Shown here one piece after another: positions 11,501-56,649 of a DNA stretch of 64,000 nt; position 1 is the first letter of the stretch; each line of letters opens with the position of its first letter. A model generated the notes under the pieces. The model ran no database searches. It worked only from the letters and a program-made list of their open reading frames with translations, and was not told the DNA's origin. The position numbers were made by a program, and so were the translations under genes. This DNA is from Scolanthus callimorphus (lineage: Eukaryota; Cnidaria; Anthozoa; Actiniaria; Edwardsiidae), in contig CM066919.1 in the NCBI GenBank assembly GCA_033964015.1, positions 22,537,421 through 22,601,420 of the forward strand, read 5' to 3'.

Positions 11501-14500
11501 TCAAAAACATCAATGTCACTCATTTTCAAGCCGGCCTTCTCCAAGACTTTAGGCGTGGCATAGGCGGGGCTGAAATCAACAAAACACGTGTTAAAATTAG
11601 TGCACTTCTCGGCAACCGCACGAAAAATCGACCGAGAAATCCTAAAATCGAAGCATCTTTTTGCCTTGACCTGCGTTCGCGTTTAGTCTACTAGCCGCCT
11701 CTCCAGTGTTTTTTTTTTCGGATATATTTTTTTTTTGGCGCACGGGATTCCTGTGTCGCGACACTGGAGAGCCGGCTAGCAGGTTAGTTTGCGTTAAAAA
11801 GCCTGTGTCAGCCACCATTTTGACAGCATAGCAACATACCAAGTCGGAGAAAGCATCCATTTCCATCGGCTGATTTAGAAAATATAGAGCAATTTTCTCG
11901 ATTGAATTTGGTAAATCAAATCTGAAATTTTGTTTTCAGATGTTGATTACTAAAAGATTTCTACTTGTAAATCGTCTTCTAATATCGAACGAAAACAATA
12001 AGAAAGGGCTCTTTAAGTGGACAAGCACAAATGCAAAGGAGAACGCAATGCTGAGGAACACGCAAAATCTCTTACACTTGCGTTCTATCGTGAACTGGAA
12101 GAGAAAAATCTACACGCACACCCTCTGAAGACGCGAAGACTTCCTACGTTCAATTTGCGTTTGTCAAGTTTTCGTTTCTTCTGCGTGCATTTCAGCAAGA
12201 TCACACTTTTTTCTACGTGAATTACAATGAAATCCCCTAAATATCTCTAAGAACTTACCCTAGAAGCAGTTGATCCTTAGGATCTTGTGATACGTAAACA
12301 AACTCTCTGTATGGAACGAAGATGTCAAAAAGATTTATCAGAACTGGATCTACTAATCTGAGTATCAAGCTTTCGGAAAGAAGGGGAAGAGAGAAGGGAA
12401 AAGGGTCATCCTCTCTCTCTTTCTTTCTGCCTCTTTTTCTCTTTAGAGGACAGAAAGGACAGGGCTCGAAATTAACAGTCATTAAAAGTCGCAATTTTGC
12501 GACTTGCTTGATGGGATTCAGTCGCAAAAAGGGAGTTAGTTCATGGTTGCACACTTGAAGACAAACCTTAAAAACCTAGGTTTATGTCGCAAAGTGATTA
12601 ATTTTGGTCGCTTTTGCGACAGATACAGTCGCAATTCCGAGCCGTGGAGGACCTGATAACCAGGCTACCGCAGAGCTCGAGTTCTCAGCTCAGATCTCTC
12701 CGGTATATTTAGCTTGTACGGCAAATGCTAAAGAGCTGTATTACTGCATAGTTTGGAGTGCCCAAATGCTTATTGTGCCTGCAGATTAGCCCAAGGTGGC
12801 TGTGGTTGGTTGGGCCCATGAATGCGTAATGAAGGTGGTCATTCTATGGCCCATGTGCTTTACTGATTTGCGTGCTTGAGGGGAGGTTTTGTTGCATTCC
12901 CTCCGTCCGACCTCTACCGGGGAAAGTATAATTGCCACGAAGACATCTGCTAGTGTAACTGTTCAGTGTGCCTCCATGTCATTATTGCCAAGTTAACCTC
13001 CTCATTCCTAATATTGACCAGGTAAAAAAGGATTCTGACATTAACCCTATGGCTTCTTACCTCAGATAAGCTTTTGGCTTCAGGCCCATACTCAAAGCTT
13101 TCTCTTCACTCATAAGCAAACACGCTGATGCCCCATCAGTCTGTTATAAACACCAACAAGCACTGTAAGTAGATCTTCATGAAGAACTCATGCATTTTTC
13201 CACTGATTTCACTAATACGTGGTTGCACCATTTTGTTTTATGGGGGCAATTGGGAATACTCAGTGCTCAATCTAAATCCACAGCAGCTTGGACTTCGATT
13301 GACAGCTGAGTATTCCAATTGCCCCCAAAAATGAAGGAAAATGGTGTGGCTGCATAATAGTCAGGGGGAGATTTAAAGGGGCCGCGGCCCCCTTTTCTCC
13401 GGAGATTTTCCCATACCGGTACATTTGCTGGATGAAATTTGAAATTTTCGTCCCATGTTATCACTATCCGGCCCTCCCTTTCTGAAATTCCTTGATCCGC
13501 CCCTGATAGATTCAGTGGTAAAACAGGAATATTGGAACACTAGTTTTGCAGGGTTTAAGAAGGAATTTTGCTCCAAACAGAGGTTGAAGTCCATCCAGGG
13601 CTCCAAATCAAAATCATTGCAGGCTCCAGGGCTTCAAGACCACTCCCCAAACTAACTGACAAGTCACACAGCCAAACAAAGCTTGGGGACAAGGCTAATT
13701 CTGAAGTCTGCTATGAGAAGATCTACATGAGTCACTAACCAAGAAAGATGAATTGGCAGCAGTGATGGTACCAAATGGCTTGATAAATGCAGGCTTCAGT
13801 TTGGCCATCTGTTGTGGCGTAGAGACCCTGATACCATTATCAAACTCCACTACAGTTGTTTTACCAGGTACTTGGTAGGCTAGGAGATCACTGAGTTTGC
13901 CAGCCTACAAGGAACAACATGAAAAAATCATTGCGGAAAATGTAGTGCTATGTTTTTACACCTGCATCGCAGTGAAATTCCAATGTTCAAAATTGCCACA
14001 TGATCACCAGCCATTCACACAGTGCAATATAGAAATCACACTACATATTACAGGGATGTCACACACATTTTGAACATTTTCAAATTCCCCTGTGATGCAG
14101 GTGCTTTAAAAAATATATATGGTTTTTGAATTGTGGAATAATGCTTTCCAAATGATGTAACTAGAGTACAAGTCTGGTGGGCAGCAATATTCAGTTAGTG
14201 TTCCTCCTCTAAATGTCCTCATGTCATCAGCAGACAAGAGGGGGTAAGAAAGGAGGGTTTCTGGGGCAGTAAATCTTCTGTTTCCAAGCCAGTCATTACA
14301 GCCAAAGACGCTGAAGCGTCCCCTCTAGAGTGCAATAATGAGTTGATTCTTGGAATATTGGATCCATTATTCGATTCAATAATGCATTTGGCTTGGGAAA
14401 ACTTCTTTGATTTGAACTCAGATTTCGGCTAGATTACCTTCCTGAACCACGCTCCGATGCTCTTAAGTCACTGGCTTTATGCTTCTTAGAATATCCCTGA

Positions 14501-23593: not shown

Positions 23594-24085
23594 GGAAAGA
23601 GATGAAACTGTGTAGCCGCGCCTCTGATTGTTGTCAGAGTACAACCACAGGTAACCCAAGTTGGTATCATCAGGCTTAGCCGGCTAAACAAGAGGAACTT
23701 ACGACTAATTATTTTGATAGAGTATTTTACTTTGTTCAATTCAAGTTTTTATGGGCATTATGATTATGATCTTTCTATTCAATACTATTTTCTTTTTCAC
23801 TTTTTAGGCAAAAGAGCTTCAACGAATGAGGCCCGACCCGATCGAGGAATAGTCGAATTATCCGAACTTCTCTCGAAGTTACAGCGAGTCGATATCGAGT
23901 GACATATTATGGTCTGCTCGTTTGCATATTCGCACGCGTGCAAGGAAAGTTATCAGAGGTTGCAGGATCCTCAAGAAAACCTGCAAAAAATCCCTTAAAA
24001 CTGCTATGAAACCTGTCAACTTCAGCTAGTACAGAACCTGGATTTATTTACTACCTTGCTGAAATATTTTTGAGCCGAAATAACG
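23591..24085. promoter_or_regulatory. Divergent promoter region of HADHB and the multi-Tudor gene
   Basis: The two genes start head to head 495 bp apart, so this segment must hold both 5' UTRs and probably both promoters. No TATA box is evident at a convincing distance. An internal acceptor-like site (ctttttag at about 23800) may mark a 5' UTR intron on the plus strand. Confidence 0.6.
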
Positions 24086-26260
24086 ATGGCTTTGCAGGTA
24101 AAATTTCCATTCGGCACCTCTGTCGACGTCTTCGTCACACACGTGGATCCGAGTTCAGGGAACATCTTCGTTCAAATCAACAACGAGGAGGCGGGGAAAC
24201 TCGACGAACTAATGGCAGAGATTGAAGAGTTCATCGCCAGAGACAGATCTCGAGAGCCGTCCGAAAGCGAAATCTTTGGAGGGAGCATTTTCTTGGCGCG
24301 GTATTCTGTGGACGGTAGATGGTATCGTGCGCGCGTTTTAGCTGTCAAACCAGCTCAGTGTGAAGTCTTCTTCATTGATTACGGCAATACTGACTTAGTA
24401 CCTCTGAGTTCTCTGAGCAAACCCCCTGACAAATTCCTAAACTTACCTCCACAAGCTCACGAGTGCGAGATAGATGGATTTAGCAAGCTAAAAACCTCCA
24501 ACTTCCAAGCCTTGGTAGATTTCCTCGCAGAGCAAGTTTTGGAACAAGAACTTGTTTGCAGAGCGATTTCAATGAAAACTAGCATGGTTCTGGTCATTCA
24601 GCTTTTCACTGACTCTAGCTGCAGTGTGCAAGTTTTAGATGCCGTTCGCAGCAGTGAGCTTGTTGAAGAGCAAGGAACTGCACCTACTGCTAAAATTTCT
24701 ACCAACAGAGCTGCAGTAGCTCCCAAAGACAAGAAATTCAAATTGTTGAATTTGACCCCTGGGTACTATGATGTCTATATCACTGCCGTCAACAGCCCTT
24801 ATGACTTCTCCTGTCAGCTTCTCTCAAGTTCTGATAGTCTTGAACTCCTAATGGAACAGCTAGCAGTGCATTATACAGATCTTGGCCCTCAAGACCTGCC
24901 GCTGCAGTCGTGTACCCCAGGATACCCGTGCTGTGCAAAATTTGCTGATGACTGTTGTTGGTACCGTGCTTTGATAACCAAAGTGGGCTCTGTAGCATCA
25001 GGATTTATAGAGGTGAAGTTTGTGGACTATGGAAATTCACAGCAGACTCCACTTACAGATGTACACGAGTTGGAGGACCAGTTTATGTCTTTGCCATCAC
25101 AAGTTATCGAGTGCTTACACCATGGTATCAAGCAGATTGAAGGATATGATGATTGGCCAGTGGAATCCCAAGTTCTGTTCAAAAAATTGACAGAGGATAA
25201 GCATCTGGTTGCAAATGTTCATGAACTCACCTCTGAGGGGAAATACACTGTTGATTTATTTGACACGACAGGTGATATGGACATGCAAGTTAGTCAGATA
25301 TTGATTGCAGCTGGCTATGCTGTAAAGACAAGTGAATTTGACCCAAATCCAGTGCGAATACCAGCAAATTCCCAACCCAATGCAATTCCCCCAGTACAAC
25401 CTCCTGTTCAAGAACAAGCCCCTCCCAAGCCTCAGTCATATCAGTACAAGAAAGAAAGTCTAACACCTGGCAAAGAGGAGAAGGTCCTGGTCACAGCTAC
25501 AGTGAGTCCTTCAAAGTTTTACTGTCAGCTGTTTAGAATGGCATCAAAACTTGAGAAACTCATGTTGGACATTGGGAACTACTATGACCGCCTTAGTGCT
25601 GATGAGGAATGGCTTTCATCTCCATCTGTGGGTGATGTATGCTGTGCCAGGTTTTCAGAAGATGAATGTTGGTATAGAGCACTTGTTACTGAAGTTCTCC
25701 CCTCAAGCCAGGTTAGAGTCCAGTTCATTGATTATGGTAACTCAGAAACATTGCCACCAAAACGTGTCAAAAAGCTTGTACCCAGATTTTCTGATCTCCA
25801 GAGCCAAGGCATTGAATGCTCACTCAATAGGATCAAACCACTTGGTAAAGACTGGAGAAGTGCAGACATCAAGAAATTTAACGATATTGCTCTTGAAAAA
25901 GAAGGAAAGCTGACCGTTGTGGCAAAGCTAGATGACGGCTCACACAGAGTTAATCTTGTGTTAGGAGGCAAGAAAGAAGTGGATGTCAGTGAGCAGATGT
26001 TGCTCGCAAATTGTGCAACTCTCATAACTGGAGCTGTTTCACAGTCTGAAAATCTTCATAGTATAGTGGCAAAGGAGTACACTGTGACTACTGTGTCAGT
26101 AGGGGACTATGAAGATGTAGTTGTTAGTTATGCAGACAGTCCTGCAACCTTCTGGTGTCAACTGGTCAAATACAAAGCTGAACTGGATGCTGTCATGAAT
26201 TCTCTGGATGAGTACTGCACCAGCTCTGGGTCAAAAGATGGAATCAACTCGCCTAGGATT
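24086..26260 (+). CDS. Multi-Tudor gene, exon 1 (Tudor 1-3 and start of Tudor 4)
   Basis: A single 725-codon exon opening with ATG in MALQVKFPFGTSVDVFV. Tudor cores lie near 24280-24420 (ARYSVDGRWYRAR, FIDYGN), 24915-25070 (AKFADDCCWYRAL, FVDYGN) and 25627-25770 (ARFSEDECWYRAL, FIDYGN). A Pro/Gln-rich linker separates Tudor 2 and 3 (about 25340-25440). The exon ends AGG ATT before GTAAGT at 26261, just before the Gly that opens Tudor 4. Three stop-free Tudor units without introns argue for a functional gene. The start is chosen because in-frame sequence upstream does not extend the homology and the ATG lies directly before the conserved N-terminal half-domain. Confidence 0.95.
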
Positions 26261-29200
26261 GTAAGTGGGACTAGATAGTAAAACTAAATATCTAAATATT
26301 GATAAATGAGAGAACTCAGGGCTTGAAATTGTGAATGTGTTGGACACAACCAAAAATGATCAGTTAGTGGCAAGACATTGACTATGACTTGGTTTTGACG
26401 ATGACTAGGTTTGTATTAACTGTACAACAAGAACTCCTTCTGAGACCAAATTTCTCAAAGAAGGCACAACGTTGTGCTGGTTATATCCTGTTAATTTCAA
26501 GCTTTGAAACTGGTTCTAGTTGTCAAAGTCCCGGTCAAGCTAAAAGGCCTATTGGGCTCCATATTATATCCATTACCCCTATCGAGGGACCTGAAAATTC
26601 CACAGGGGTTGCTGTTTTTGAAAATTTGGAGTTCCTTGATAGGGGGGTACGTTTCTTTGTTGAACATTAAACTTATTTTCATGACTTCTTATCACATGGT
26701 TTCTGTAAAAGTGTCCTATGATATCCAAACTATGAACCTCTCTTATCAGGTATGCCTTGTTGTGCAATGTTCAGTGTTGATGAAGGATGGTATAGAGGAA
26801 GAGTGACTGGAGTGAAGAGGAACCGTGATGTTGAAGTGCAGTTTGTTGATTATGGAAACTCTGAGATGATGCCGGCATCCCGTCTGAGAGCCATGAAGCC
26901 TGAGTTTATGAATCTCCCTGCTCAAGCTGTCAAGTGTGAACTGGAGCATCTAGGGTTTGACAAGAAACATCATTTCTCAGAGGTGAGCCTCTGAGTGTTC
27001 AAGTGAAGCAGGCAACTTCAAAAATATTTCTTTACAAGGCAGGACTAAAAGCTAAAAATAACAGCTGGACATCGAACAATGTCTGTCCAAAATTGAATGT
27101 CTACTGGCCAAATCTTTGTCTGGCGGGACATTTTGACCAGCCACATTCAATTTGAGTTGTCATATTTTTTTGTTATAGACTTCCCATCCCACCATTAAAT
27201 AAATAGAGAATAATACATGGGCGCATGGAGATATGGAATTTATCTTCGAGTGTTCATGCAGCAAATGAGTGAGATATCAAATGTGAACACGAGAAGATAA
27301 ATTCCATATCTCCAAGTGTCCATGTATTATTCTGTTTATTATATAAACAAGAAACACTGCCATGCTCCACGGAAGCAACTTTTATTGGCCATGAGGAAGG
27401 AAACATAGTGATGAATGTATAATTGACGATCCAATATAATTGTTGAACTTGTTGCAAATGTTCAAGTGAAAAGTTTCCGCTCCATAGATAAATACAAAAC
27501 CGACTTGACTGACAAAGGAGAAAATGCCCCTTGCCAAACACGCAGATTCCTGTCGAAACCGTGAATTTTCTCATGACCACCCTGAAATTCCATATTTTGG
27601 AAATACCCCACCCTGAAATGTTGCTCCAGTACTTTAGCTACCCACTTGGGAATTTTATGTTGTCCCTTACCCACCCTGGAATTCCACTGAATTTTTCTCA
27701 TGACCACCCTGAAATTCCATATTTTGGGAGTACCCACCCTGGAATTTTGCTCCAGTACTTTAGTGCCAACGCTGTGTGCAATTTAGTTTAAATAAGTTAG
27801 CTAAGTGAAGTTTGGTTTTCCTCTCTTTATTGAAGGAACTGATTAAAACTCCATATTTTGGGAATACCCACCCTGGACTTCTGCTCCAGTACTTTAGTGC
27901 CAACCCTGTCTGCAATTTGGTTTTAAAAAGTGAGCTAAGTGAAGTTTGATTTTCCTCTCTTTATTGAAGGAACTGATTGAGAAGTTTGATCAAGTCACTG
28001 CCGAAAAAGAACTTGTAGCTATGATTGCATCCTATGACAAGAACAATGATCAGTATGTGGTAGTGCTTCATGATGCCACTGATGGCAAGAATGAAAACAT
28101 CTTAGACCTTCTGACCCCTCTACTACCCAAACAAGCTGGCACCATAGGCGTAGCTATCCCTAAGCTCAAACTTCAAGCAGGGACCAAGGAAACTGTGTGT
28201 GTAACATCAGTTACTGGTATCTCCAAGTTCTACTGTCAGAAGATGAGTAGCTCAGTTCAGTTAGATGAGATGATGCTGGCTTTAGAAGACCATTATGCTG
28301 CTCTGACAGGTGACCAGGAAGCCCTGGCCGATGTTTCAGCTGGTGTTTACTGTGCTGCCAAGTATACTGAGGATGATGCATGGTATCGTGCTAAGGTAAT
28401 CAGCACCAGCAGTGGCTCTGCCGAGGTGCACTACATTGATTATGGGAATTCAGAAACTGTTCCAATTGCAAGATTAAAGAAGCTGACCTCCAAGTTTGCA
28501 GAGCTGCCGCAGCAAATTATCACAAGTTGTCTGACTGGTGATAGAAGTGGACTGTCTAATACTCAGTTCAGTGACCTAGTGTTTGACAAAACATTTGATA
28601 TGCATGTCATTGCTGTTGAAAGTGATGGTGTCACTGAGGTGGACCTAGTAACCAAGGACACAAAGAAGTCAATAAGAGAACATCTTACAAGAACAGCTGT
28701 GCAGACTGTTGAAGTCCCTAAGATGACCTTGCCAGCTGGGAGCAAGGAAGCAGGGCTTGTCACCTCTGTAACCAACACATCAAAGTTCTATTTCCAACCC
28801 AACAAGTCTGGTGGTGATCTTGATGAAGTGATGAGTAATATGGAGAGCTATTACAGTGGGTTGAGCGAATTGCAAGATGCGCTGGAGAATCCTGAGGTTG
28901 GTCTCTACTGTGTGTCGAGGTTTACGGAGGATGACGGATGGTACCGTGCCAAGGTATCTAAAGCTCATGCTAACAGTGTTGAGGTGTTCTACATTGACTA
29001 TGGGAATTCGGAAACTCTACCGCTAAGTAGGGTGAAGATAATCAAGCCAGAGTTTGCAACACTTCCTGCTCAGGTAATAATATTGCTAGAAACCTCTTGA
29101 AATGTACATTCCCAAGACTGTTATGGTGCTGAAGTAGGTTCCCACTTCTGTATGTTTGAAGTCTCCCTCCCCACACATATGAGGTGTTGGTTGCTACTAG

Positions 29201-32200
29201 AGGTGTTGTAAAACATTTACAGTCAGATATAGCAACTTCTTTGTCCACCCAGAATTTCCACATAAATTCATTGTTTTGGCCCTGGAATTTTGAAATCATG
29301 CTGATTTAATTTTGAAACCACATGTCTGATGAAATTGCACTCCACTTGTTACTTACCATTATGCACCATGCTAGTAAAATTGAAAATTAAATGAGACTTA
29401 CAGGAAGATGAAGTTTTTTTGGAGTTCTACCAGGTCATCACAGCAGCAGAGATAATGTCTCTGATTCAAGGACCTGGTAGAATGGAATATACACAAGGGA
29501 AGAGTAGTTTTCCAAATTTTCACGGTGTAAAATAGCTGACTTCCTATAAGCCCTTTTTTAGAAAATGCACTACTACAGTATTATGGTTCTGGGATTATTG
29601 TCAATGTATTGAAGTTGTTCTTTAATCTTGATATTTTCAGGTATTGGAGTGTTCCTTGTACAATGTCTCAGGACCAAGTGATGGACCTACAGAGACCAAG
29701 TTCCAGACTTTTGTCCTTGAGAAGGAGCTGACTGCACATGTTAAGGCAGTTGGAAGTAGTGGTGCTGCCCAAGTTGAGTTGATAGATGAGTCTGGGGTAT
29801 CTGTTGCCCAAAGTCTTGGAACAGGCAAAGAGGAAGAAGCAGTTGAATCAGTTGGTGAGTGCCATGTATTACTGTATATGGTAGCATGCCCCAAAAAATG
29901 AAACCATCTGATAATAATACCCTCCTTTCTTACCCCCTCTTGTCTGCTGATGACTTGAGGACATTTAGAGGAGGAACACTAACTGAATAATGCTGCCCAC
30001 CAGACTTGTATTACAATGTGGTGTTACATTTCCTGGAAAGTATTATTCCACATTTAGGATATTCTATCAATGCTGATAGAGTACATGCACATATTGTAGA
30101 GTGACGGCTCAGTCTTGGTCCCAGAGCGGTCATGCTGAATATTGGGGCTCTGGTAGCAGAGCAAACCCCCTGTCCTAGACTCTTAAGACATCCAGTTTTC
30201 CCATATATGATGACCATCTTTGTAGTTTAGTAGAATTTCAAAATGGCGAGCGAGACTATAGTCCAATAGGTAATATTCATATTCACATGGCCGGACTAGG
30301 ATGAACACTCAAGTGAGCCTAATCCGGGTTCTTTTTGTTTCACTCTCTCCAGCTCAGTGTATTTGGAAAAGGTGAAACAAAAGAATCACCTGCATGAGCC
30401 TCACTTGTTAGTGAGTGTTAGTCCCAGTCTGACCATTACAAAAATTGCCTATTGGAATCAGCATATGATTATTTGCTCCTGGAGCCTATGCAAAATGACA
30501 GACAGGGAAGTAGGCTCAGGGAGATTGAGTGATGGCTCAGTAAAAAATTCTGAACTTCCTGATGGGGCTTGAACACATGACCTGCTGTCTGCAGTGTTTG
30601 GTTGCTTGGTTGGCAGAGTATCCAACTGGTACTGGTAACTGGAAGTTTGTGGGCTTCCAATCTGGGAGCTCAGTATTTTTTTCTGATGTTTTCTCTCATA
30701 TATTTACAATTACAAATACAGGCAGTTAGCCCCCCAGACCAGTTCGTTCCAGTATGATATTAATTCTATTCCTGAACATGTTTTATTGTCTTATTTGCTC
30801 AGATACTGGTTTCAAGCCTTTCAAAGTGACATTCTCAGAGGGAGATTTCATTGATGTTGAGCCATTGGTCTGCCATTCTCCGCATCAGTTCTACTGCCAA
30901 GTCTTGACAGCCGAGAGGATTGCAGCCTTTGGCAAGCTAACTGATAGTATGACGAGCTACTATAGCACCTTGCCTCCTGGTCAAGATCAGATTGGACAAC
31001 CAGATATTGGAATGGCTTGTTGTGCTTTATATGAAGGTGGGGGTTATTCTGTTCCTTCTTTTAGTGTGTGTAGTCCTAAGCATTTCAGCAAAACAATACC
31101 CTGGGTTACTTGTTTGGAACCAGTCTCACTGACTTACTGACAACACTTATTGACCACCTATTGAAGCTTTTATTTCACATATTGGACATCACAAATTGAA
31201 TATGTGGCCATAGACAGAAAAGCACCATCTCTGAACATACTCAGTTGAAGACCCTATGTCAAATGAGTGTGACAATGTGATGATTGGTTTGTGGTGTTAT
31301 CTAATGCAGTACAAAACTTTCAAAATAACACAACAAGTTTGTTTTATGTTGATGATTTAGTAGGGTGAACTATAAAACAAGTTTGTCTCTTTCTAATTAT
31401 CTCAACAGTAGACAACACCTGGAACAGAAGCACATTAGTTAATGTTCTTGGGAGTGATATGGTTGAAGTCTGTTTTGTTGACTTTGGAAATGTTGAGCTG
31501 ACACCAATCTCCAACATAAAGGCATTGAAGCCAGAGTTTCTAGCCCTTGAAGAGCAAGCAGTTCTTTGTAGAATGTCATCTATCAAGCCTGCCAGTGGGG
31601 CACAGTGGTCTGGAGGGGCCACCCAGAAGTTCTCCACCCAAGTTAACCAGAAGCAACTTGTGGCAAAAGTACTTAAGATTGGAAAGCAAGGTGAATTTCA
31701 AGCTAGTAGTGCAGTGTTTTCACAAGAATTTGGCCTAAGTGGGTCATACTGTAGGGCCCTTACCTTTCAATTTTATGGGTCATCCAGGTTTTGTTGGGCC
31801 ATAGATTTGCTTTAAGTACTTCCTTTTCTTACATTGATCTCTATGCATATTTAGAATGAAATAGGAATGTCCTTGTTTGTGTAGCCTGCGAGCTGGTTCT
31901 CCAGTGTTTTTTTTTTTGGGGGGGGGGGGATATTTGATTTTTTGGCATGCGGGATTACACAGGAATCGAGCGCCAAAGAAATGAAATAACCCCTCAAAAA
32001 AGCACTGGAGAGCTGGCTTGCAGGCTATTGTTTGTTGGGTCACTCCAGAAATTCATGTGCCATCAGGGTCAAAGTTTGAGTTCCAACTGTGGACTTTTTA
32101 CATCAATCTTGCAATGGTGCACCTTGGCAAGAACATGTCCCATTAACTCGAACAATAACAACCCCTCAATGTTTCCAAACCAGTTAACTAAAAAGCTGCA

Positions 32201-35200
32201 TTTCCATGATTAAAAATATTTCTTACTGGTAGAACCTATTACAGTCAGAAACACAACTCACTCTTTTCTTTGTATCACGATTTTTGTTATAGTGAGATCT
32301 TTGCACAGTCTTTTTACCCTTAGGAAATTATTCAACTGAAACTCATCTTGATGTTCTCTTATTGTTCTAGGAACGGACACCTGCATAGAAGTAAACATGT
32401 TTGACACACATGACGACGCTAGAGATGATGACATAGGGGAACTTCTAGTTGCTGCTGGTCTAGCCATACAATCAACACCATCTGCTGCCACATCTAAAGG
32501 TCCATCTGCTAAATCACTACAGAAACTCAAGCCCTCTACTTCACAGGACCTCTATGTCACTGCAGCTGACTCCCCAGATAAATTCTACTGCCAGCTGGCA
32601 GGCACTGAGGACAGGCTTGCTGCTTTAATGGAAAACTTAGGAGTCTTTTACGAAGCCCTGCAGCCAGACGAGCTTGTTTTAACGCCGTTAAATCCAGGAA
32701 GTATTTGCTGTGCTCTGTATTCTGAAGATGGAGGATGGTACCGTGCAGTGATTCAAGAAAATCATCATGATTCTGCAACTGTGAGATTCATTGACTATGG
32801 AAATGTTGAGAAGGTACCACACACCAGTGTCAAGGAACTTACTGAGGAGTTCATGGCAGAACCTGTTTTGGCTATTGAGTGTAAACTATCTGGTGTTTGT
32901 CCTACTGGAAATGCCTCTTCCTGGTCAAAGGAATCCACGGATGCCTTCCTGGGAATTGCAGCAACTGACAAAGTGCTTACAGCTCAGGTGAAAACCCAGT
33001 CCGAACCATATGAAGTTGTCCTCCGTGATAGTTCTAGTGATGTTTCTGAGGCCTTAGTAACTGGAAAGTTTGCCATATCCAGCAAGAACAACAAGGCTGC
33101 CCCTGTGTCAAAGGCAGTTGGTGTTGTAGCTCAGGATTACAAGAAACCTGTAGTTAACATTGGAGCAGAGATTGAGGCACTTGTGACTGACATGCAGTCG
33201 CCTGGGCAGTTCCATTGTCAGCTTGCAGCCACAGGGGATGAGCTAGATGCAAGTAAGTAAAGGGATTCTATTACAATATTTTGTTTGTCCTTTTCAAGGT
33301 GGTTTTGGAATGAAGAACACTCACAGTGTGACTACTCCAGCCAAGGCCCCTCAAACAATTTTTCTTACAAAAGTATTTGAACAGTAGATGCATCAGAATT
33401 TTTCTTTTTTAGAAAAAGCATTGTTTTTACTTGCAAAAATGTTCAATGCTACAATTTTCCAAAATATCGTAAGCTCATGAGAATAAACGTCTATAAAAAT
33501 TTGTTAAAGATTTGCTTGGTTGGCCTTGGTGATGTAGTCGCTTGAGAGATATCCAGTGTAGCTAGGAGGTAAATGAATAACGGTAAATGACGATGATGAC
33601 GACAACTATGACAACAACAACAATGAGGTTCTTTAATTTGAGATCTTTACAGGATCTGTTAGACATTTCTGTTTGAAAGATCTTTAATCATTAAATAAGA
33701 TTTTTCAGAGATCTTAAAAATGATTGAATATCTTTAGGATCTTAAGGATTTGTGAATCTTTATAGTAGAGTCTGTTAAGGGAAAAAATAGGTAAAATCGT
33801 GCACTTCTGCGTAAAGGCGCCAAATTTGGACCAAATGTTCCTTAGGTGAAATAAATCAGTTTTCGGGAGGGGTGCCATCATTTCGACCCAAGGGGGGTAG
33901 GGTAGGGGCAATTTTGTCTATTTTCTAATTTCCCAATATTTCTTTAACGACAGTTTATATTCACTGGTGTTTGCAAGTTTCGAGAATGGAAAACGATACA
34001 ACATACTAGGCTCTCTATTGTCTTGTGTAAACCTGTAAAATAAAATACTGAATGTGTCTATTTTCTCTTGTTAGTGATGAATTCAATGAATGAGTACTAC
34101 ATCTCTCTTGGGAGTGCTGTCAGAAGTGTCACATCACCACAAGTGGGACAACCCTGTGTTGCTGTTTATGAAGAAGACGAGAGTTGGTACAGAGCAAGAA
34201 TCCAGAGCATATCTGGCAACAGTGCTAACGTGATATTCACCGACTATGGGAACACTCAGAATGTCCAGCTATCAGACATCAAACAAATTGAGCCACAGTT
34301 TCTGGAACTTCCTCTTCAGGCCATCGAGTGTTCATTAGACTGTGAAAAGCAAGCATGGAGTAACCAAGAGATCGAGATGTTTTTGGAAATTACAGCTGAG
34401 GAAAAAGTGACCGTGAAGATTGTGGGCACAAGAGGATCGAGATATCTCGTGAAGCTGTTCGGCAAGGAGAATTTACCCATTAGTGACACTTTCCTGGCCA
34501 AAATAACTATAACAGGTAAAGACTGTGGTTACCATAAAACGCAGGTTCCGTAACAAATTTGTCCTTTTGCCAGAAAAGTTGGAGTGGAACATTCTTGTTA
34601 TGGCTGGATCTCAAAAAGATGCTGGTGTTCAAAACTTTGGCTGATTTAAAGTTATACTTTTAAGACCTGTAATCTTGCTTGAAAGATCTTTTTTATAGGA
34701 ATAGGAGGTAAAAGGATGAATTTTCCAGCCATTTAGGTTACCATTCTAAAGGCTGAAGCATGTGAATCGGCTGCATAGACATTCAGAATTGAGGAAATTA
34801 TCGAGAGAGTTAATTACCACTAAACTTCTCTGTCTTTTCCATACCTTCTCTTATTTTCCTAATTTCGTTATTTTTCAGCTCCACAAATCAAGCCAACAGA
34901 CCTATCCATCGCCAATATGCCAGTAAACCCTGGACAAACTGCCATTACTTACACCACCAATGTCCGAGAAGATGGGTACTTCCATGTGCAACTATCTGAA
35001 TCTGAAGCGCCTCTGGATCAGGTGATGGCACAGATTGCCGAGATCTACCCCAATCTGGGTCCCTCAGAGGAACAACTAACGTTTCCAGCAGTAGGAGCCT
35101 TCTGCTGCGCCTTATTTACTGAAGATAACACTTGGTACCGAGCTGTCATCACCAAGATGGTGTCTAGTTCAGAAGCAGAAGTGGAATTCATTGATTATGG

Positions 35201-38200
35201 GAATAGTGATCTAGTTCCTGTCATATCATTGAAGTCCTTGCGACCTGATATCTGCACGTCTCCTAGACTGTCCATCCTTTGTAAGCTGGCCGACACCAAG
35301 GCTTCCTGGAGTCCTGATGATGCGCAGCTCTTGGAATCACACACCTTAGAGAAAGCTCTGGAGACCACGTTTGTAGGACAACAAGGTGAAGCGTGGCTTG
35401 TACGTGTCAAAGTCGTCGAAGGAACCAACCTGAACACCCTACCCGAGTTTGGTCAACAACATGGTGCACCCAAGGCGTTGGCATACTCCAAGGCAATGTT
35501 ACGTGGCAAAGAATCTGCCTATTTTCTATCAGCTGAAGCCATAGACAGGGTTTGGGTGCAGCCGTGCAAAACGGAAAGGGAGCTGGCAACCTTGATGAAC
35601 ACCATCGCAACAAATACAAGCCAACCCCTAACAACAGTAGCAGTTGTCCCAGGGCAAGCTTGCCTGTCTCAATTTACTGAGGATGATGGTTGGTACAGAG
35701 CGGAGGTTATTACAGTAAACAACTCTAGTGTCCATGTGATGTACGTAGATTATGGAAACTCCGAGTGGCTACCAGCAGGAAGACTCCGAGAGATCAGTGA
35801 CTCCTTGATGGGTTTACCAGCACAAGCCGTGAGATGCAGTCTGCATGGGGTGTCATCAAACCAAGCAGAAGCAGTTGTAGCACGCTTGAATGAAGAATGT
35901 GCAGAGAAAGTTGTAGAGGTTGAGACGTTGCAAGCCCCTAGCGATGGAGTACACACGGTGAGGTTTTATGATGCAGAAACGAAGAAGCCATTGACAGGAG
36001 ACAGTGGTGCACCTGCTCAAGAAATCCAGACAAAAGGATCCTTCACCAAATCCACTTTTTCTGTAAACAACAAAGAGCAAGCATATTTCTTGTCGGCAGA
36101 TGGTGTTGATGCAGTGTGGCTTCAACCACTAAAGACTGAGGGAGAGCTAGGGGAAGTCATGGATGCCATAGCTGCTGGTGTCACAGGTCAAGCTTTACTC
36201 TCCACTGCCTTACAAACTGGGCAGCCATGTCTTTGCCAGTTCACCGAAGATGATGTATGGTACAGAGCAGAAATAATTGAAGTTCAGAACTTGAGTGCGC
36301 ATGTGAGATACGTTGACTATGGGAACTCCGAGTGGGTACCTGTTGACAGACTAAGAAATATTAGTGATACGCTACTTAAGCTGCCTGCACAAGCTGTGAG
36401 ATGTAATTTGCATGGGGTCTCCCCAAGCCTTGCGGGCATAGCTGTAACCAAACTTAACGAAACCTGCAGTGAGAAGTGTGTTGAGGTTGAAGCTGTGCTA
36501 CTAAGCGGAGAATCTCCATGTGTAAACCTATACGATCCAGAAACCAAGAAGCCAATCCTCGACAATCTTTCTGCACCCCAGGTCAAAGAGGAACGCAGCT
36601 TCACTAGAGCCAGCATTTCCAATAGAGAACAAGCATACTTCCTGTCAGCAGATAGCATCCAAGAGGTTTGGGTACAGCCGTGCAAGACAGAAGGCGAACT
36701 GGCTGCTTTAATGGGTGTCATTGCTGAAACTGATACCAATGAGAAGCTGTCTCTGTCATCATTGGTCACTGGAACGCCCTGCCTCGGTCAATTTACTGGT
36801 GATGACACCTGGTACCGTGCAGAAATAACAGATGTGAAAGGATCCAGTGTGCACGTTCGCTATATTGATTATGGAAATGCAGAGTGGATTGCGGCTGAGA
36901 AATTGTCACCAATCACGGAGAGCCTTCTTCAGTTACCCACCCAAGCAGTTATGTGTTCGTTGTATGGAATCCCAGAAAGTGACAGAGATCAAGTTGTAGA
37001 GAAACTCAATGTAGGTTGTGAAGAACAAATTGTAGAAGTTGAGGTTGTTGAGAGGTTACCCTCTGGAGTTCCCGTTGTACGACTTTACAGTAGTGAGACA
37101 AAAGAGTTGGTGATCCCGCAAGCTGTAGAGCCTCCACCTAAGGCTCAGGAGTCAGATGCCAAGCTCCTGTTTTCTAAAGCTAGCTTCACCACAAATGCAA
37201 GAGAACAAGCTTATTATTTGGTGGCAGATAGCGCTACTGCTGTATGGCTCCAGCCTGTTAATACAGAAAACGAACTGACCACCTTGATGGACACCATTGC
37301 AGCAAGTGATAAATCCCAAACACTTTCACTATCTTTACTAGTAGCAGGTCAAGCGTGTTTGTCACAGTTTACAGAAGATGACGTGTGGTACCGAGCAGAA
37401 ATCCTAGAAATAAAGGAATCAATGATCCATGTCAGATATGTAGACTATGGAAACGCAGAATGGATACAAGTGAGCAGACTACGAGCAATTTCCAGGCCAC
37501 TACTCGAGTTACCTAGCCAAGCTGTAAGGTGCTGCCTTCATGAACCATCTAGTGCATCAGTGGAACAATTGAATGAAGTTTTTGCGGAGAAGACAGTAGA
37601 AGTTGAAGTTGTCGAACTGTCTGCCGAAGGACTACCTATTGTTAACATTTATGACTTGGAAACCAAAGAGCAAGTCACTCTCCAGGAAGCTACTCCAGTA
37701 CAAGAACAAGAAGTTTGTCTAAAGACGCTATCTTTCATAAAAGCAACATTCTCGTCTAGTGAAAGAGAACAAGCGCACTTCTTGTCTGCAGATGCTGCAG
37801 ATGCAGTTTGGATGCAGCCAGTGAAGACTGAGGGAGCATTAGCAGCGTTAATGGAGACACTTGCTACCACAAAACTGGACGGCCCTCTCACAGAAGCATC
37901 TGCTGCAGCTGGACAGCCTTGTCTGTCTCAGTTTACTGAGGACGATGCATGGTATCGAGCGGAGATTATCACTGCTGACTCAGGAAGTGTACACGTGAGG
38001 TACGTGGATTATGGAAACTCTGAATGGTTACCAGTTACAAGACTAAGGCCCATCAGTGAGTCCCTGCTTCAGCTGCCTGCGCAAGCAGTGAGGTGTGTTC
38101 TAGATGGAGCTCCAGATCAGCAATCTGTCAGCAAGCTAAATGAGATCTGTGCAGAGAAGTCAGTCGAAGTACAAGTTGTTAGGCAAGATCCAGATGGGCT

Positions 38201-41200
38201 AGGAACAGTAAGACTGTATGATTGGGACACCAAAGAACCTGTCCTTCCGATAGAAATCCCAGAACAACTTCAGGAAAGCAACCAAGAAAGCCTGTTTTAC
38301 CTCAAAGCTTCATTCTCTTCACATGAAAAGGAACAAGCATATTTCTTGTCAACTGATTCAGCAGATTGCGTCTGGCTCCAACCTGTAAAAACTGAAACTG
38401 AACTTACGACATTGATGGAAACTATTGCCTTAAGTCCCAAAAATCCTCTTGCAGGAGACACAGTAGCTATTGGATCAGCTTGCTTGTCGCAGTTCACTGA
38501 GGATGATACATGGTATCGGGCAGAGATCTTAGGCGTTCTTGATGGAAAAGCACATGTGAGATACATAGATTATGGAAACAGCGAGTGGCTTCCATTAGAG
38601 CGACTAAGTTCTGTTAGTAAAAATTTACTTGTTCTTCCTACGCAAGCAGTACAATGCTCTTTGCATGGCTTAACACCAAGTGACGATGCAGTTCAGATTC
38701 AAAAAATTAATGAACTATGTGCGGAGAAGACACTTGAAGTTGAGGTTGTAGAGCACACTTCAGATGGACTACCCTCAGTAAGAATCTGTGATGCCGAGAC
38801 TAAGGAGCCAGTTATCTTCCAAACTGAACCAGCTGCTGGCGAAGCAAGTCCCATCCAAGAAACATTGTCCTACTCCAAGACAACGTTTTCTGGAACTGAA
38901 AAAGAACATGCATACTTTTTGTCAGCTGTTTCTGTCGACTCTGTCTGGCTCCAGCCTGTAAAAACTGAGACTGAACTTGCAACACTAATGGAAACTATCG
39001 CATTGAGTCCCAAAAGTGCTTTAGCAGCAAACGCAGTAGTCCCTGGAGCAGCTTGCTTGTCACAGTTCACTGAAGATGACACCTGGTATCGTGCGCAGGT
39101 ATTAGAAGCGAAAGATGGAAGTATCCACGTTAGATATGTTGACTACGGAAACTCTGAATGGCTTCCTGTAGAACGACTGGGCTCTGTTAGTAAAGATTTG
39201 CTTCATCTGCCAATACAAGCAGTTCGATGCTCTTTGCATGGCACAGCTCCAAGTAACGAAGTGATAGAAAAACTCAATGAACTATGTGCTGAGCAGACAG
39301 TCGAAGTTGAAGTTGTAGAGCAGACGTCGGATGGACTACCCTCAGTAAAACTTTATGATGCAGATACTAAAGAGCTAATTGATCTTCTTAGTACACCAGA
39401 CACAGAGGACGTCAATGCAGAGACTAATGAGCTAATTGATCTTCTTAGTACACCAGTCACAGAGGACGTCAAACCCACTCTAGAAGTATTATCATACACT
39501 AAAGCCACATTCTCAACAACTGAGAAAGAACAAGCATACTTTTTGTCAGCCAATGCTGTCGATTCTCTCTGGCTCCAGCCTGTCAAAATGGAGTCCGAAC
39601 TTGGGACACTAATGGAAACTATCGTATTGGGTCCGAAAAGTGCTTTAGCAGCAATTGCAGTAGTCCCTGGAGCAGCTTGCTTGTCACAGTTCACAGAAGA
39701 TGACACCTGGTACCGTGCGCAGGTTTTAGAAGCAAAAGATGGAAGTATCCACGTTAGATATGTTGACTACGGAAACTCTGAATGGCTTCCTGTAGAACGA
39801 CTGAGCTCTGTTAGTAAAGATTTGCTTTATCTGCCAACTCAAGCCGTGCAGTGCTCTTTGCACGGTATAGCTTCAAGTAACGAAGTGATAGAAAAACTCA
39901 TTGAACTATGTGCTGAGAAGACAGTCGAAGTTGAAGTTGTAGAGCAGACATCGGATGGACTACCCTCAGTAAAACTTTATGATACAGAGACTAAAGAGGT
40001 AATTGATCTTCGTAGTACACCAGACACAGAGGACGTCAAACCCACTCCAGAAGTATTATCATACACTAAAGCCACATTCTCCACAACTGAGAAAGAACAA
40101 GCATACTTTTTGTCAGCCAATGCTGTCGATTCTCTCTGGCTCCAGCCTGTCAAAACGGAGTCCGAACTTAGGACACTAATGGAAACTATCGCTCTGAGTC
40201 CCAAAAGTGCTTTAGCAGCAACTGCAGTGGTCCCTGGAGCAGCTTGCTTGTCCCAGTTCACTGAAGATGACACCTGGTACCGTGCACAGGTATTAGAAGC
40301 AAAAGATGGAAGTGCTCATGTGCGATATATCGACTATGGAAACTCAGAATGGCTACCTTTTGAGAGACTTAGCTCCATGACTGATTCGTATCTAAGCCTC
40401 CCTATTCAAGCGATACGGTGCACTTTATTTGGTATCTCAACGAGCGAGTCCAACAAAGCTGTTGAAGTATTAACAGAGCTATGCAGTGAAAAGACAGTCG
40501 AGGTGGACGTTGTTGGGGAGACAGAGGAAGGCAATTATATTGTCAAACTAAAAGATCCAAGTACTCAAGAGTGCATTAATGACAAACTTATCCCAGTTCC
40601 AGATAAGGCTCCAATTGCCCCAGACGTATGTTCTGTCTCTTCACATACGGTATCAAAAGAAGGGTACGATGGCCCAGCCTTTTCAAGACCACAATTGAAG
40701 GAAGGCTCTGATATTGTCGCGTTTTATGTCGGAGGATCATCACCAGATTGTATACACCTACAGATTGGGGAGCAGCACGAGAAGCTTTTAGCCTTGATGG
40801 AACAGATAGGTTCATCATATAGCGAACTGGACGATGAGTACAACATTTCTGAGCCAAAAGTTAAGCAGTTGTGCTGTGCTTTGTACTCTGAGGATGAGCA
40901 ATGGTACCGGGCAGAAATTCAAGACACCAGCAATGATGTTGTTGTTGTAAAGTTTGTTGACTATGGTAACGTCGAGAGCGTCCCATTAGGCAAAGTGAAA
41001 CAGCTGAAGTCAGAGTTTCTAGAGCTTCCAGCGCAAGCATTTGAGTGCCAGCTTGCAAGAGTCATTCCATCAACAGCTGACGCGGAGTGGCCGGACAAGT
41101 GTATGAGCTGGATGGAGGAAATACTAACAATGGAGCTTAGAGTGGAGGTTCTTGCTGTTAAGGATCATGGTATTTATGCCAATTTGTACTTCAAGACAGA

Positions 41201-44200
41201 GGAAGGTGAGAACTCGGTCGCACAGTCGCTGGTGGACCTTGGGTACGGAATGTTTTGTGAAACGATTGTGGAGAAAGCTGTACAAGAAAGCATCGAGTCT
41301 GAGGTAGGAGATGTGGCACTTGCACCTGCTTCTGAGGGGGTTACAGCAGATGAGGAGGATGAAGATGAAGAGTTTGTTGAAGCAAATGAAGAATTACCAG
41401 GCGAACAGAAGCAAGAGGAGAACAAAGACACAGAATCTGCATTGGCTGATAGCGTTTCTAGAGTTTCGTCTGGAACTGATGCCCCTTTGGTGACAAGTGA
41501 CGAAATACCTGTGGAACAGAAATCAGAAGAGATTGTTGAAACAGAATCCACAGCCAAGGAAAGCAAGGAGGTCTCACTAACACAGCTACAATCAAAGGTG
41601 ATGAATGATGCTACAGATGACGTTGAAGAGATCAAAGAAGCAATTACTGAAGAAGAGTTAATGCCAGAGCCGAAACCAGAGGAGAAGGAAGAATCCGCTC
41701 CTGTGGCTGATGCCAGCGAAGAAGATGTTTACCAGGAAGCACCTGTGGAAGCCTCGACATGCAATGATGAGACCCCAGAGAAAAGCACTTTTGAAGAGGA
41801 GACGTCAGTGAAAGCCCCTGATGATCAACCATCTGACACGGATGAACCTAGGGATGTACCAGTAAAACAGACAGTTGGAGTTTTACCAGGAGAGGAGGAG
41901 GCGGCAGATGAGGAGTTCATGGATGCGGATTCCACACAGAGAACTCCAACAGAAGGTAACAGCTGTAACTAAAACGAATACACGATTCACCTAAGGTGTT
42001 GTGTAGGAGCCGCCCCGACCCGCTGTTTTTATTGAAACACAAATAAAAGAAGCTCAAACGTAGACTATTAGCAAGTAACTCTAACTCTAGAAATAGACGA
42101 GGACATGAAAGAAAGCAGTAATACGAAACACACCTAGCCAATCAAAAATGAGATAAATTAGTTGCTGCTTTATGGCTCCCGTAAGCCAATAATAAACGAA
42201 GTAATATCACTATCACGCGGTTGGGGTGTGGTCACTAAATACACAGCTGCGGTTAGTGCTAAATATGATTGGTTGATAGAAACGCAAATACAAATATAGT
42301 ATACGAGTATAGTAATACTAACAATTCCTTTGCTTTTCCCAGACCCCGCCACGCCATCATCATCCCAAGAGAGTAGCGAGATTCATGAAGTAAATGGAGA
42401 CGAAGAGGGGGTAAGTGGAGGGGCATGTTCCACGAGTTATGTTCCTTCCCCCAGTCCGGAGGTAATGATTGATAGTTCTAATGAGGTTAGGTTTGTAAAG
42501 GGAAGCCCTGAATCGTCTAAACTTCACCTAGAGCAGGAGAGCTCGTGTCCGTGAGTGAAAAACTCTAAATGTCTGATTGTGCTTACAGAAGCTGTATTTG
42601 ATCTCGCGGAAATGTGATTGCATGTTAAGTAGTTAAAGTTTGTTTTTAGTTGCTCTAGAATGAACAAGTAATAGACACTATTTTGATATGGCTTAATAAT
42701 ATCTTACAGTTATCAGGAAACGAAGTCCAGTATTCAATTCAGCACATCCTTATTAGAAAAGGTGCAATGTTTGGGAAGAATTACTCGAAAACTGACAAAG
42801 ATATGAATTTTCAAAACATAGCTTTCTGTTTTTTTTTTTACAAAAAAAATGTATGGGCAAAAAACAGCAAAACGAGGCGGTTAGCGCATCGATGCGCTAC
42901 CACCATACATTTTATTGTAAAAATCATCAATTTAGAAAATTTTTATCTCGGTCAGTATTCAACCAATCTTCACCAAACTGTACAGTTTTACTAATACGGA
43001 TGTGCCGAATTTGATACTGGACTTTTCCTGATAACTGTAAGATATTATTAAGCCATATTAACGTGATATGGGTCTATTGGAACAGAGACTTGCGAGAAAA
43101 CCGCGAACACATAAGAAGTATAGAATGTGCGTGACTAGTAACGCGAGAGCTGCACAAAATTTGAACGCTGTCCTGTTTGAGGTGTTTAACGTAGTGGCGA
43201 GTGCATCTCTCGTACGCGACTGGTCAAAATACATTCCACGCATAAAGGTGTTTCCAGTTTTCTTCGCTGTAAATAAATTTCCAGCCATCTGGATGTGGCA
43301 AAGACAACGGCAATGTAGTCTTCCACAGGTATCGCAGAAGTCAATAAATGGCTTTGTTGTTTGTTTGTAAATATATTGAGAATATTTTTATGCAAATGTT
43401 TTTTAGAAGTTATATAAAGTTCAGCGCAACTTTAAGCGTAAGTTAACCAAATGATGGCGCAGGTGCCTTTTTACTACATATTTGGTTTCTTGTTTTTCGA
43501 TTAGATAGGATATTTTGTATAGGCGTTCGTGAAAGAAAGTGATCAGAGAACACGAGCCTTGTTACTGTTGTTAAAGTATAATGAAATAATGTTAAACTTG
43601 ATTTCTTTTGACGGCAGCCAGTTTATATTGACTAGAGTAAAAGCTAAATAGTTTAGATAGCTTATTGACACTAATGTTTGATAATTAAAGTAATAAAATA
43701 ACAAATATAATCAACAATTTGATGTGTTCGTTGTAACTAACGTTTCCGTAAAATTAACTTCGAAGTAGATTTTCTAAATTAAGGTTCCTTAAAAAAGCAT
43801 AAAAGAACACATATATATGCCCTGGTGAAAAACCTGATCAGGATCCTAAAAGATCTGTAAGGAGCTTCCTGGCGTTTCCTGTAGGATCCAGTTTATGATC
43901 ATCTAAGATCCTTTATACTATAGCTACGATGTAACGCGCGCTCTGATTGGTCCAAATCTATGCTCTATTTCACCGATAAAGTAATGGTTCTCCCTTGCTA
44001 TATCATGAAGGCGTTAGAGCACAACTTTCTATTACTTTATCGTGTTGTGCTGTTGTGCGTTTTAAAATGACACATCGGCGGCTCGTGATTTTAAAACGTT
44101 CTCGTATCTCCCAACATCACGCGTGCTCTATTGCGCCGATATAGTCATAGAACGTTGTGCTCTAATGCTTTTCAGCATTTAAAAATAGGATTCTGTAAGA

Positions 44201-47200
44201 TCTTATACGATCCTGATAAGGATTTTCACCAGGGTAATATAAATAATTTTCCTATACGTGTTTTTCAATAAACGTCCCAGTAAGTACCGGAAAAGGAACT
44301 AATAACGTACTGTCATGTTGGTCGAACAGGGTTGCTACAGCTCCTGGAAAATTTGTAAAGCCCTGGATCATTATTGTACTGCTGGAACCCTTTTACTCAT
44401 TTTTCTTACTTAGTTCGGCTTGCAATTGCCATTTAGGCGTCTTGTTTCTGATTGGCTAGCGATTGCTCAATTGCAAATGTTTTCCCGATGGTCATGTGAA
44501 ATCCGCTCTATACTTAAACAATTAGTCGCCTATGGCTCCGTGACTATCGGCGAATAGTCACCGATACGAAAATCACGTTAAATTGTAAGATCCATCGCCT
44601 GGCCACTACAAACTTGGTAAATTGACTGATATGTTTTTAAACATTTAAGAATATTTTGCTGCAGCATTTGTCCTTGATGCCAGTGGAAGAACCTGTTTGA
44701 ATAATCGCGTATTCCATATATCGATTTATTATTAACGGATGTACCTTACAACGTATGGGGTACAGGCCTTCTTTTCAACGAGGTCGTTTAAGAGTTATAA
44801 AAAGAAAGGGGGAAACTAGTTGTGCTTGTGAGCAATTTGCTGTTCGCAGTGTTTGTGTTGTAACGCAAATCACATACGCATTACTATCCTCGATCATTAC
44901 GACCCTCAGTCATCACTCTCTGCTGGCACCACATTAACAACTAGTTTCTTTATTTGACGTCATTTTCAGCCACCAGTCTCCTTCAAAAGCTCGTAAGCCA
45001 AGTAAGATGTTTTTTTGGGATTCCCGCCATTTTGTCAGCCTAGCATTTTCTCAGAAAGCATCCATTTCCATCGGCTGATTGTGGAAAGGTTGTGCGATAT
45101 TTTCGATTGGATTCGGTAAATGAAGGATGAGAGCTTGTAGATTGTCATTCTACACGTAATTTGTCTTCTGATATCGAATCCAAAGGAGTGGCTGACAGCG
45201 TTATGATACGGACCGCTTAGAGCCGAAGCCAGACTTTATTTTACCACGGTGAAAACACTCAAAACAGATAGTTACTATGACCGAAACTCCTCCGCTTTGT
45301 AATGCAAGGCCGAAACCCCTCCGCTTTGTAATGCATCTAACCATATCTGTTCTTAGACGTTCTGCAGTGTTGTTTGTTGCCGTATTAAGCCGTGTTTGTA
45401 TCTGGCTACACTAAGGTACTGTGTTCATTTTGTCATACTTCTCATACGTCTGCTGTTTCAATCTACACTATAGAGTCACAACGATTTTTTTTGTAAGAAT
45501 TGAGATTGTAAATTGTTCAGCAAATGTGCTAGCAGATGCCTCTATCCCATCAGGAAATTGCAATTAGAAATCCTATTTCTTGGGATTCGAACCCATCACA
45601 TGCATTACTTGTGCTTTATAGAAGCATATTTTCTCTTTATGAAGTGATGTTACTACAAAGCAGAATTTGATGCTTGGGTTCTTGGGAACCATAGGCAGAA
45701 ACTTCAGTTGAGGATCTGCTTCATAAGTTTAAAAAAAACTTACATGGTTACGTGGTGCTCTTGCTGAATAGTCGAACCCTGTTCATCAAGGACATTTCAT
45801 TGTTCAGTAGGAAGGAGCAGTGAGATTCGTATCACAGGCAATTTCTGCAGAACCCCATTCGCGGGAAGCTGATTTTCCCATTGTAGAAGAATGAGAAGTG
45901 CTCGGAATTCCCATCACAATCCATAGGACATAGCAATCCCATGGGAAATACGAACACTCCCCAATCTTTGTCTTGGGAAAATCACATGATTGTGTAGTCT
46001 GCGTTCCATTGTTCGGCTGGCTCCACAGGCCTTGGTACTGGCATTGGTACTAGCATTGGTACTGTCCAGGCATCGGATTTATTCTCATTACTTTTCAACC
46101 CCATGTTGTTTCCCTCTCGTGTATTGTGATTGCTGATTGTCTTGTTGTTGTTGATTATCCACCATGACGGTTTGAATTGTTTCAATCTGTAGATGGTAAC
46201 CAGTTTCACCAGAGAAGATCCCGACTCGATAGAATGCCAAAAAATGGCTGGAAATTTCCTTGAAGAAATAATCGCGGAGGTCATTAACAAAATGGAACTT
46301 CTAGCAATGAAAGACCAAAGCCTTATGCAACTGGTGTTGCCAGCACACAGAGTCAAATATTCGAACCAAAAATGCTTTATGAAGAAAGCAGAGACATGAC
46401 CAACACCGACAACGTGAGTTCCAGAACGGAAACTTGTGATGAAATTACAACACAACCATCAGATCCAACGTCCAGTGCGGGAATCGAGGTCGATGCAGCA
46501 TCAAGCGAAGAGAATTCAAAAGAATGCGAAAGTGGTTTGAAATCCGGAGATTTGGATTCTGTAGACGTCAAGGGCATTGCTTCAAACGTGAGTGATGGCG
46601 ATTCGAGGAACCTTCAAGAAGAAGCTCACTTGGCATCGGAATGTTGGAAACAAGACACTGATAAAAAGGCCACAGATCGTGAAGAGAAACACTTGGAGAC
46701 TGCCCCCTTGCCTGTAACAAGAGGTGGGCTTGCGGATGAGATCCAGAGAAAGGAAGTTGCCGAGGATATACTAAGCGAAGTGTTGAAACAGGTATGTGAT
46801 GTTACTATAACAGCAGACGTTAGACATCCAACTAAAGAAAACGTAGAAGATTCGTCTCCTGCTTTGAAAGAGAATCCTGATGTTATGAATTATAAAGAGG
46901 AAACCGCTATGGAGGAGAACGAAACGAAATTGGAGCAGCAAGAAATCACACAAGAACAAGAGGTAGCACTAATGGAGCAGGAACAATCACCACGTGAGGA
47001 AACCACACTGGTAAAAGCGATCCTCTGCTGGAACCGGAGGGATCCCCACTTCAACATGGAGAACAGTTGTTGGAAAATATAGAACCACCACAGACACAAG
47101 AGGAAGCCCCGATGGAACATGAACAGGCAACCGTGGTAAGCGAGGAAACTGCACTGGTAAAGAGGGATACCCCACTGGAACCTTTGGGACCCCCGCTGGA

Positions 47201-56566: not shown

Positions 56567-56649
56567 CTACAATGGAAATAGGTCAGGTATGGTTTAGAGA
56601 GTAAGTAATGCTTTTTGCTAGCCTGCAAAAGCCAACACCAATTAGTACT

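Follow-up and report, generated by a model that had tools for sequence, protein, structure and literature searches.

This 64,000-nucleotide stretch of the genome of the actiniarian Scolanthus callimorphus (the window) raises the question of how one Tudor gene came to encode 20 Tudor domains, and what so many domains might do. The predicted protein, of 4,285 residues, carries 20 extended Tudor domains, nine of which group with one anthozoan domain, and is probably a multivalent germ-granule scaffold for symmetrically dimethylated Piwi-type proteins. An earlier note, made from the sequence alone, had reported 20 Tudor cores in a single in-frame exon chain, and both parts of that description were borne out, with 10 exons joining into one open frame. 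What the note overlooked is that nine of the 20 domains group with one domain; at the level of the predicted sequence, the array grouping, along with a binding cage kept in nearly every domain, is what distinguishes the protein.

The domains were counted with the Pfam TUDOR profile, run on residues 1-1856 and on the giant exon 9, and with a home-made profile built from these and other Tudor domains, which was applied to 183 proteins, the window protein included. Pfam TUDOR returned 9 stretches in residues 1-1856 and 11 in the giant exon; this count, which the earlier note had proposed as a check, came to 20 stretches and not far fewer, and the home-made profile likewise found 20. The 20 D(Y/F)GN cores all map to the + strand, from 24377 to 40959, and when the six frames of the window were scanned for D[YFH]G[NQ] they came up together with one unrelated + match and two unrelated - matches. 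By the home-made profile the window protein ranks first of the 183, followed by Mnemiopsis with 19 domains, 14 proteins with 18 (one from the sponge Dysidea), five with 17 (including Oculina, Stylophora and one amphioxus record), five with 16 and one further amphioxus record with 15. Twenty domains is the upper end of a continuous range, and cnidarian Tudor copy numbers of up to 19 have already been published (PMC12147562). The unusual number claimed earlier stands as the top of the set, but the yardstick chosen for it, the 11 domains of Drosophila, was discarded because relatives from a ctenophore, a sponge, corals and amphioxus have 15-19; 11 is still given as the highest known Tudor number in a 2025 paper on Drosophila (PMC12261137, cited here and below from an excerpt).

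The nine related domains form an array (domains 11-19; 35457..40655, + strand) of units of 183-208 residues each, with boundaries set by us, and the domain tree gathers all nine into one group with Oculina 17, Stylophora 14 and Actinostola 14 (support 100/98). Minus the eight extra array copies, the protein would have 12 domains. In another set of 20 anthozoan-like proteins, which are most probably fragments translated from a single giant exon, the array-type domain was the best match once in each (20 of 20), and 18 keep the same seven-domain order; with Oculina, Stylophora and Actinostola added, a single array-type domain is present in 23 of 23, the Oculina and Actinostola models stopping right after it. 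Outside anthozoans, two or three domains with a weak best match to the array type occurred in 16 of 179 proteins, and in two of 56 in a later set, none having more. A genome search placed the array at one locus in the assembly and found no second copy. No relative with a similar array was seen among the matches listed (120 of 853 in one search), the candidates being limited by length and shared words, and no report of such an array was found in titles or abstracts of the open-licence literature. That the array is unique to this species is unproved: the nine domains make up one side of a weakly supported branch in the 68-domain tree (78/51), and in a 29-row tree Actinostola 14, P0048 and P0058 (two proteins without a name) fall into the same unresolved group, so that part of the array may predate the split from these three. 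A two-unit structure model of A1 was poor (predicted local distance difference test score, pLDDT, 53.3) and was not used.

The array appears to be old, since pairs involving units 11-15 are close to synonymous saturation (proportion of synonymous differences, pS, 0.71-0.87), with a nonsynonymous difference of 30-39%. Units 16-19 (38274..40655, + strand) are, by these comparisons, younger than the rest and are the only firm clade within the array (100/98 in the domain tree, 99/98 in the 29-row tree). Their synonymous divergence (dS) spans 0.25-1.98, the ratio of nonsynonymous to synonymous divergence (dN/dS) is 0.18-0.33 in six of six pairs, and domains 17 and 18 are 87% identical with a dS of 0.25. 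These figures bear on neutral drift, in which unequal crossing-over in an intronless exon would add repeats without any new function beyond the ancestral dozen domains. Copy number does seem labile, because single-domain amplification recurs in the family (35 of 183 proteins) and at different positions, for example in Oculina 6-10. Drift would nevertheless have to be reconciled with the low dN/dS among the youngest four units, with nonsynonymous differences of only 30-39% in pairs with units 11-15 whose synonymous sites are nearly saturated, and with cage residues that are the same in all nine copies, and it is regarded as an unlikely account.

The 35 proteins are those that hold clusters of at least two domains at least 50% identical. 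The largest cluster at this threshold is the window array with nine, followed by P0109, whose record lists a MYND finger, with seven; the array is not the largest at every threshold, as P0109 ties with it at 45% (nine each) and 60% (seven each) identity. Similar-domain clusters were also seen in Oculina P0001 (domains 6-10), P0109 (3-9) and P0173 (1-6), with best pairs 95%, 99% and 56% identical, respectively. In the domain tree a clade of its own unites Oculina 6-10 with Stylophora 6-8 (100/100); by this tree, it was another domain of the same protein that was multiplied in scleractinian corals. The coral proteins (Oculina patagonica ACROYT_G009026, P0001, 3,322 aa; Stylophora pistillata 'Tudor domain-containing protein 1', P0002, 3,696 aa) offer separate best matches for most of window domains 1-10, domains 5 and 6 sharing one in Oculina; Stylophora has no clear match to window domains 5, 6 and 8 and a C-terminus similar to that of the window protein. 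Unlike the window protein, they have 17 domains each, one array-type copy and full cages in 10 of 17 domains each. Actinostola sp. QZH41_018695 (P0003, 2,921 aa) has 14 domains, one of the array type, and 11 full cages; its model ends just after the array-type domain, so later copies are possible there. Window domains 1-10 each have their own Actinostola match (10/10, best hits among 68 domains). In the domain tree, domains 3, 4, 5, 7, 8, 9 and 10 pair with Actinostola over the two scleractinians, 9 without strong support, while domain 1 sides with the scleractinians and domains 2 and 6 are left open; against this tree, the 29-row tree places domain 10 with corals and not with Actinostola (87/82). 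These placements suggest a hexacorallian, perhaps closer to sea anemones. Two further proteins are giant multi-Tudor chains like that of the window, namely Mnemiopsis leidyi ACHWQZ_G017946 (P0136; 19 domains, 5/19 full cages) and the Dysidea avara 'maternal protein tudor-like' (P0008; 18 domains, 13/18 full cages), but unlike the window array they lie outside the 22 largest similar-domain clusters listed.

A full cage was scored with a home-made sequence pattern as four aromatics plus an asparagine (Asn). It is kept in 19 of the 20 window domains, the highest cage count in the set, and its residues are identical in nine of nine array copies. The core signature described earlier was recovered in 20 cores, with domain 7 departing from it (WNR...DFGN), and this is also the sole domain without a full aromatic cage. 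A tryptophan (Trp) three residues after the cage Asn, in the motif YGN(S/A)EW, is present in all nine array domains and in none of the other 11. It had to be rejected as a private mark of the array, occurring once each in 13 of 182 homologues and six of 56 further ones, and it is probably old, since among the homologues P0039, P0048 and P0058 have it in their only array-type domain. The uniformity of these residues also bears on the proposal that the array copies diverged to bind different partners, as distinct sockets instead of one repeated interaction. In Drosophila, the individual Tudor domains are not redundant and differ in their partners (PMC12261137), and within the array units 11-15 reach only 55-63% identity with their best matches; with cage and nearby Trp the same in all nine, however, such divergence seems improbable.

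The preferred reading, a multivalent scaffold, would work as follows. Each Tudor domain would clasp one methylated arginine tail in its aromatic cage, one molecule with 19 caged domains of 20 could link as many as 19 tails, and the array of nine units would line up similar sites like a comb, increasing avidity and favouring condensation; in this chain we infer the ligand, the avidity, the granule role and the effect of domain number. By analogy, a germ-granule scaffold role fits the Tudor family. The tudor gene of Nematostella, a possible orthologue of the window gene, is active in germ cells, namely oocytes and spermatogonia, where its messenger RNA (mRNA) is found together with Piwi1 and Vasa2 protein at germ granules around the nucleus (PMC11464780, likewise cited from an excerpt). 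Possible partners are encoded in the genome, which contains PRMT5-family exons and Piwi-domain exons, the latter belonging to Piwi or Argonaute genes. A reading frame, MPRKGKGRGRGRGRG, lies between two Piwi-domain loci on contig C15, about 18 kilobases upstream of the second, of which it would be the first exon.

Several observations weigh against this scaffold reading. A GRG-rich frame was found at only one of the two C15 loci, with none in the 20 kilobases before the first. The array units differ in length, by the range given above, and of the two exon 1 donors the one that keeps the frame is the weaker. In Drosophila, a domain with an altered cage can bind Aubergine and domain 10 does not (PMC12261137), and unmethylated arginine may be the preferred ligand of many extended Tudors whose cages are incomplete (PMC8249470); for these reasons the cage alone is no proof of binding.

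It is not settled whether a condensate scaffold depends on how many equal sites it carries or on a repertoire of sites that differ, and nearly all Drosophila Tudor domains are described as contributing on their own (PMC12261137). The window protein has both kinds, some eleven distinct domains of old date alongside nine related copies, and the two ideas are therefore separable in one molecule. The novelty of this TDRD6/Tudor-type scaffold lies in how its binding sites were multiplied. A more speculative extension, which we hold to be rather unlikely, is that scaffold valency is a tunable genetic dial: one cage-bearing domain was run off nine times in an intronless exon while corals multiplied another, and array length may vary between individuals, setting granule size or the output of Piwi-interacting RNA (piRNA).

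As to family, the window protein shares with the TDRD6/Tudor type many extended TUDOR domains in one chain (20 Pfam stretches), a predicted extended Tudor fold (Tudor barrel plus staphylococcal nuclease (SN)-like part) and the aromatic cage with Asn. No MYND, KH, LOTUS, RING or helicase part was among the Pfam matches in the parts scanned, residues 1-1856 and exon 9. Best hits of the window domains are scattered against Drosophila serrata P0180 and amphioxus P0121, and a published survey likewise could not resolve these families (PMC12147562). The gene looks like the animal's MYND-less, TDRD6/Tudor-type gene. A second multi-Tudor gene, TDRD1-like, lies on contig C6 (11626596-11636506), with a MYND finger and 2 + 5 TUDOR stretches in its two longest frames, the second of which contains a proline/glutamine-rich repeat run. 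TDRD1 resembles the window protein in having several extended Tudor domains, which are the nearest solved structures, and differs in its MYND finger, of which the scanned parts of the window protein show none. Drosophila Tudor is similarly a chain of extended Tudor domains, and the array domain matches structures solved for domains of this protein, but Drosophila Tudor has 11 domains, and binding and granule role are shown there (PMC12261137), whereas in the window protein they are predicted.

The 20 domains most likely belong to one gene, because other anthozoans have single predicted proteins that agree with it in domain order and at both ends, and would be transcribed as one mRNA. The single predicted gene (24086-42554, + strand) has 10 exons linked by nine GT-AG introns of 363-987 bases, in a frame without internal stops; chance is ruled out for this frame because the giant exon alone is open across 7,077 bases. 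Exon 1 (24086..26264), an open frame, holds the start codon, domains 1-3 and the first part of domain 4, domain 1 starting at residue 16, compared with 13-15 in three anthozoan orthologues. Exon 2 (26750..26982) holds the core of domain 4, exon 3 (27970..29073) its end, domain 5 and most of domain 6, and exon 4 (29641..29854) the end of domain 6. Domain 7 is split between exons 5 (30803..31036) and 6 (31409..31690), domain 8 and the start of domain 9 lie in exon 7 (32371..33252), and the rest of domain 9 in exon 8 (34075..34515). The giant exon 9 (34879..41955), a single open frame with its 11 Pfam TUDOR stretches, holds domains 10-20 and an acidic tail; domain 20, the last (40716..41129), was found by both profiles. 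Exon 10 (42343..42554) encodes the C-terminus and the stop codon (42552-42554), all of these on the + strand. The gene end at 42410 given earlier was 144 bases short, and the residues added, SPSPEVMIDSSNEVRFVKGSP, resemble the C-terminus of the Stylophora protein when compared by eye.

That two or more genes, or an assembly artefact, were read as one is highly improbable. After exon 1 the frame is shifted by the strongest donor, GTAAGT at 26261, and kept by GTGGGA at 26265, which leaves the junction ambiguous, but single anthozoan predicted proteins share the N-terminus and domain order, one also sharing the C-terminus, and all nine introns are under 1 kilobase. The array lies at one place in the assembly and is not one copy assembled twice, because even its closest copies differ (dS 0.25).

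Use of the stronger of these tandem donors (26261-26270), four bases apart, would give a frameshifted product cut after three Tudor domains. A 134-base direct duplication (27712-27978, 91% match) spans the 3' splice site of exon 3, which therefore has two candidate acceptors. The window is on contig C9 of a 597-megabase assembly of 302 contigs, in which the pairs C28/C3, C31/C9, C107/C7 and C118/C15 gave matches with near-equal scores, suggesting leftover alternative haplotypes.

Downstream, an acidic, repeat-rich coding frame (46288-48917, + strand) contains a 39-base unit repeated 11.5 times at 47605-48051. It was rejected as a 3' part of the gene, with none of 307 tblastn rows of three anthozoan orthologues, two of whose models look cut short, falling outside 24000-42500, and with no Pfam match; it is split between two frames near 47000 and appears to be a gene of its own, containing either a frame break or a short intron. 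The neighbouring genes on the - strand, seen as exon pieces only, are a thiolase gene (9914-13904) and a Cu-oxidase_4 gene (55017-56582), which we take to be of the LACC1/YfiH type.
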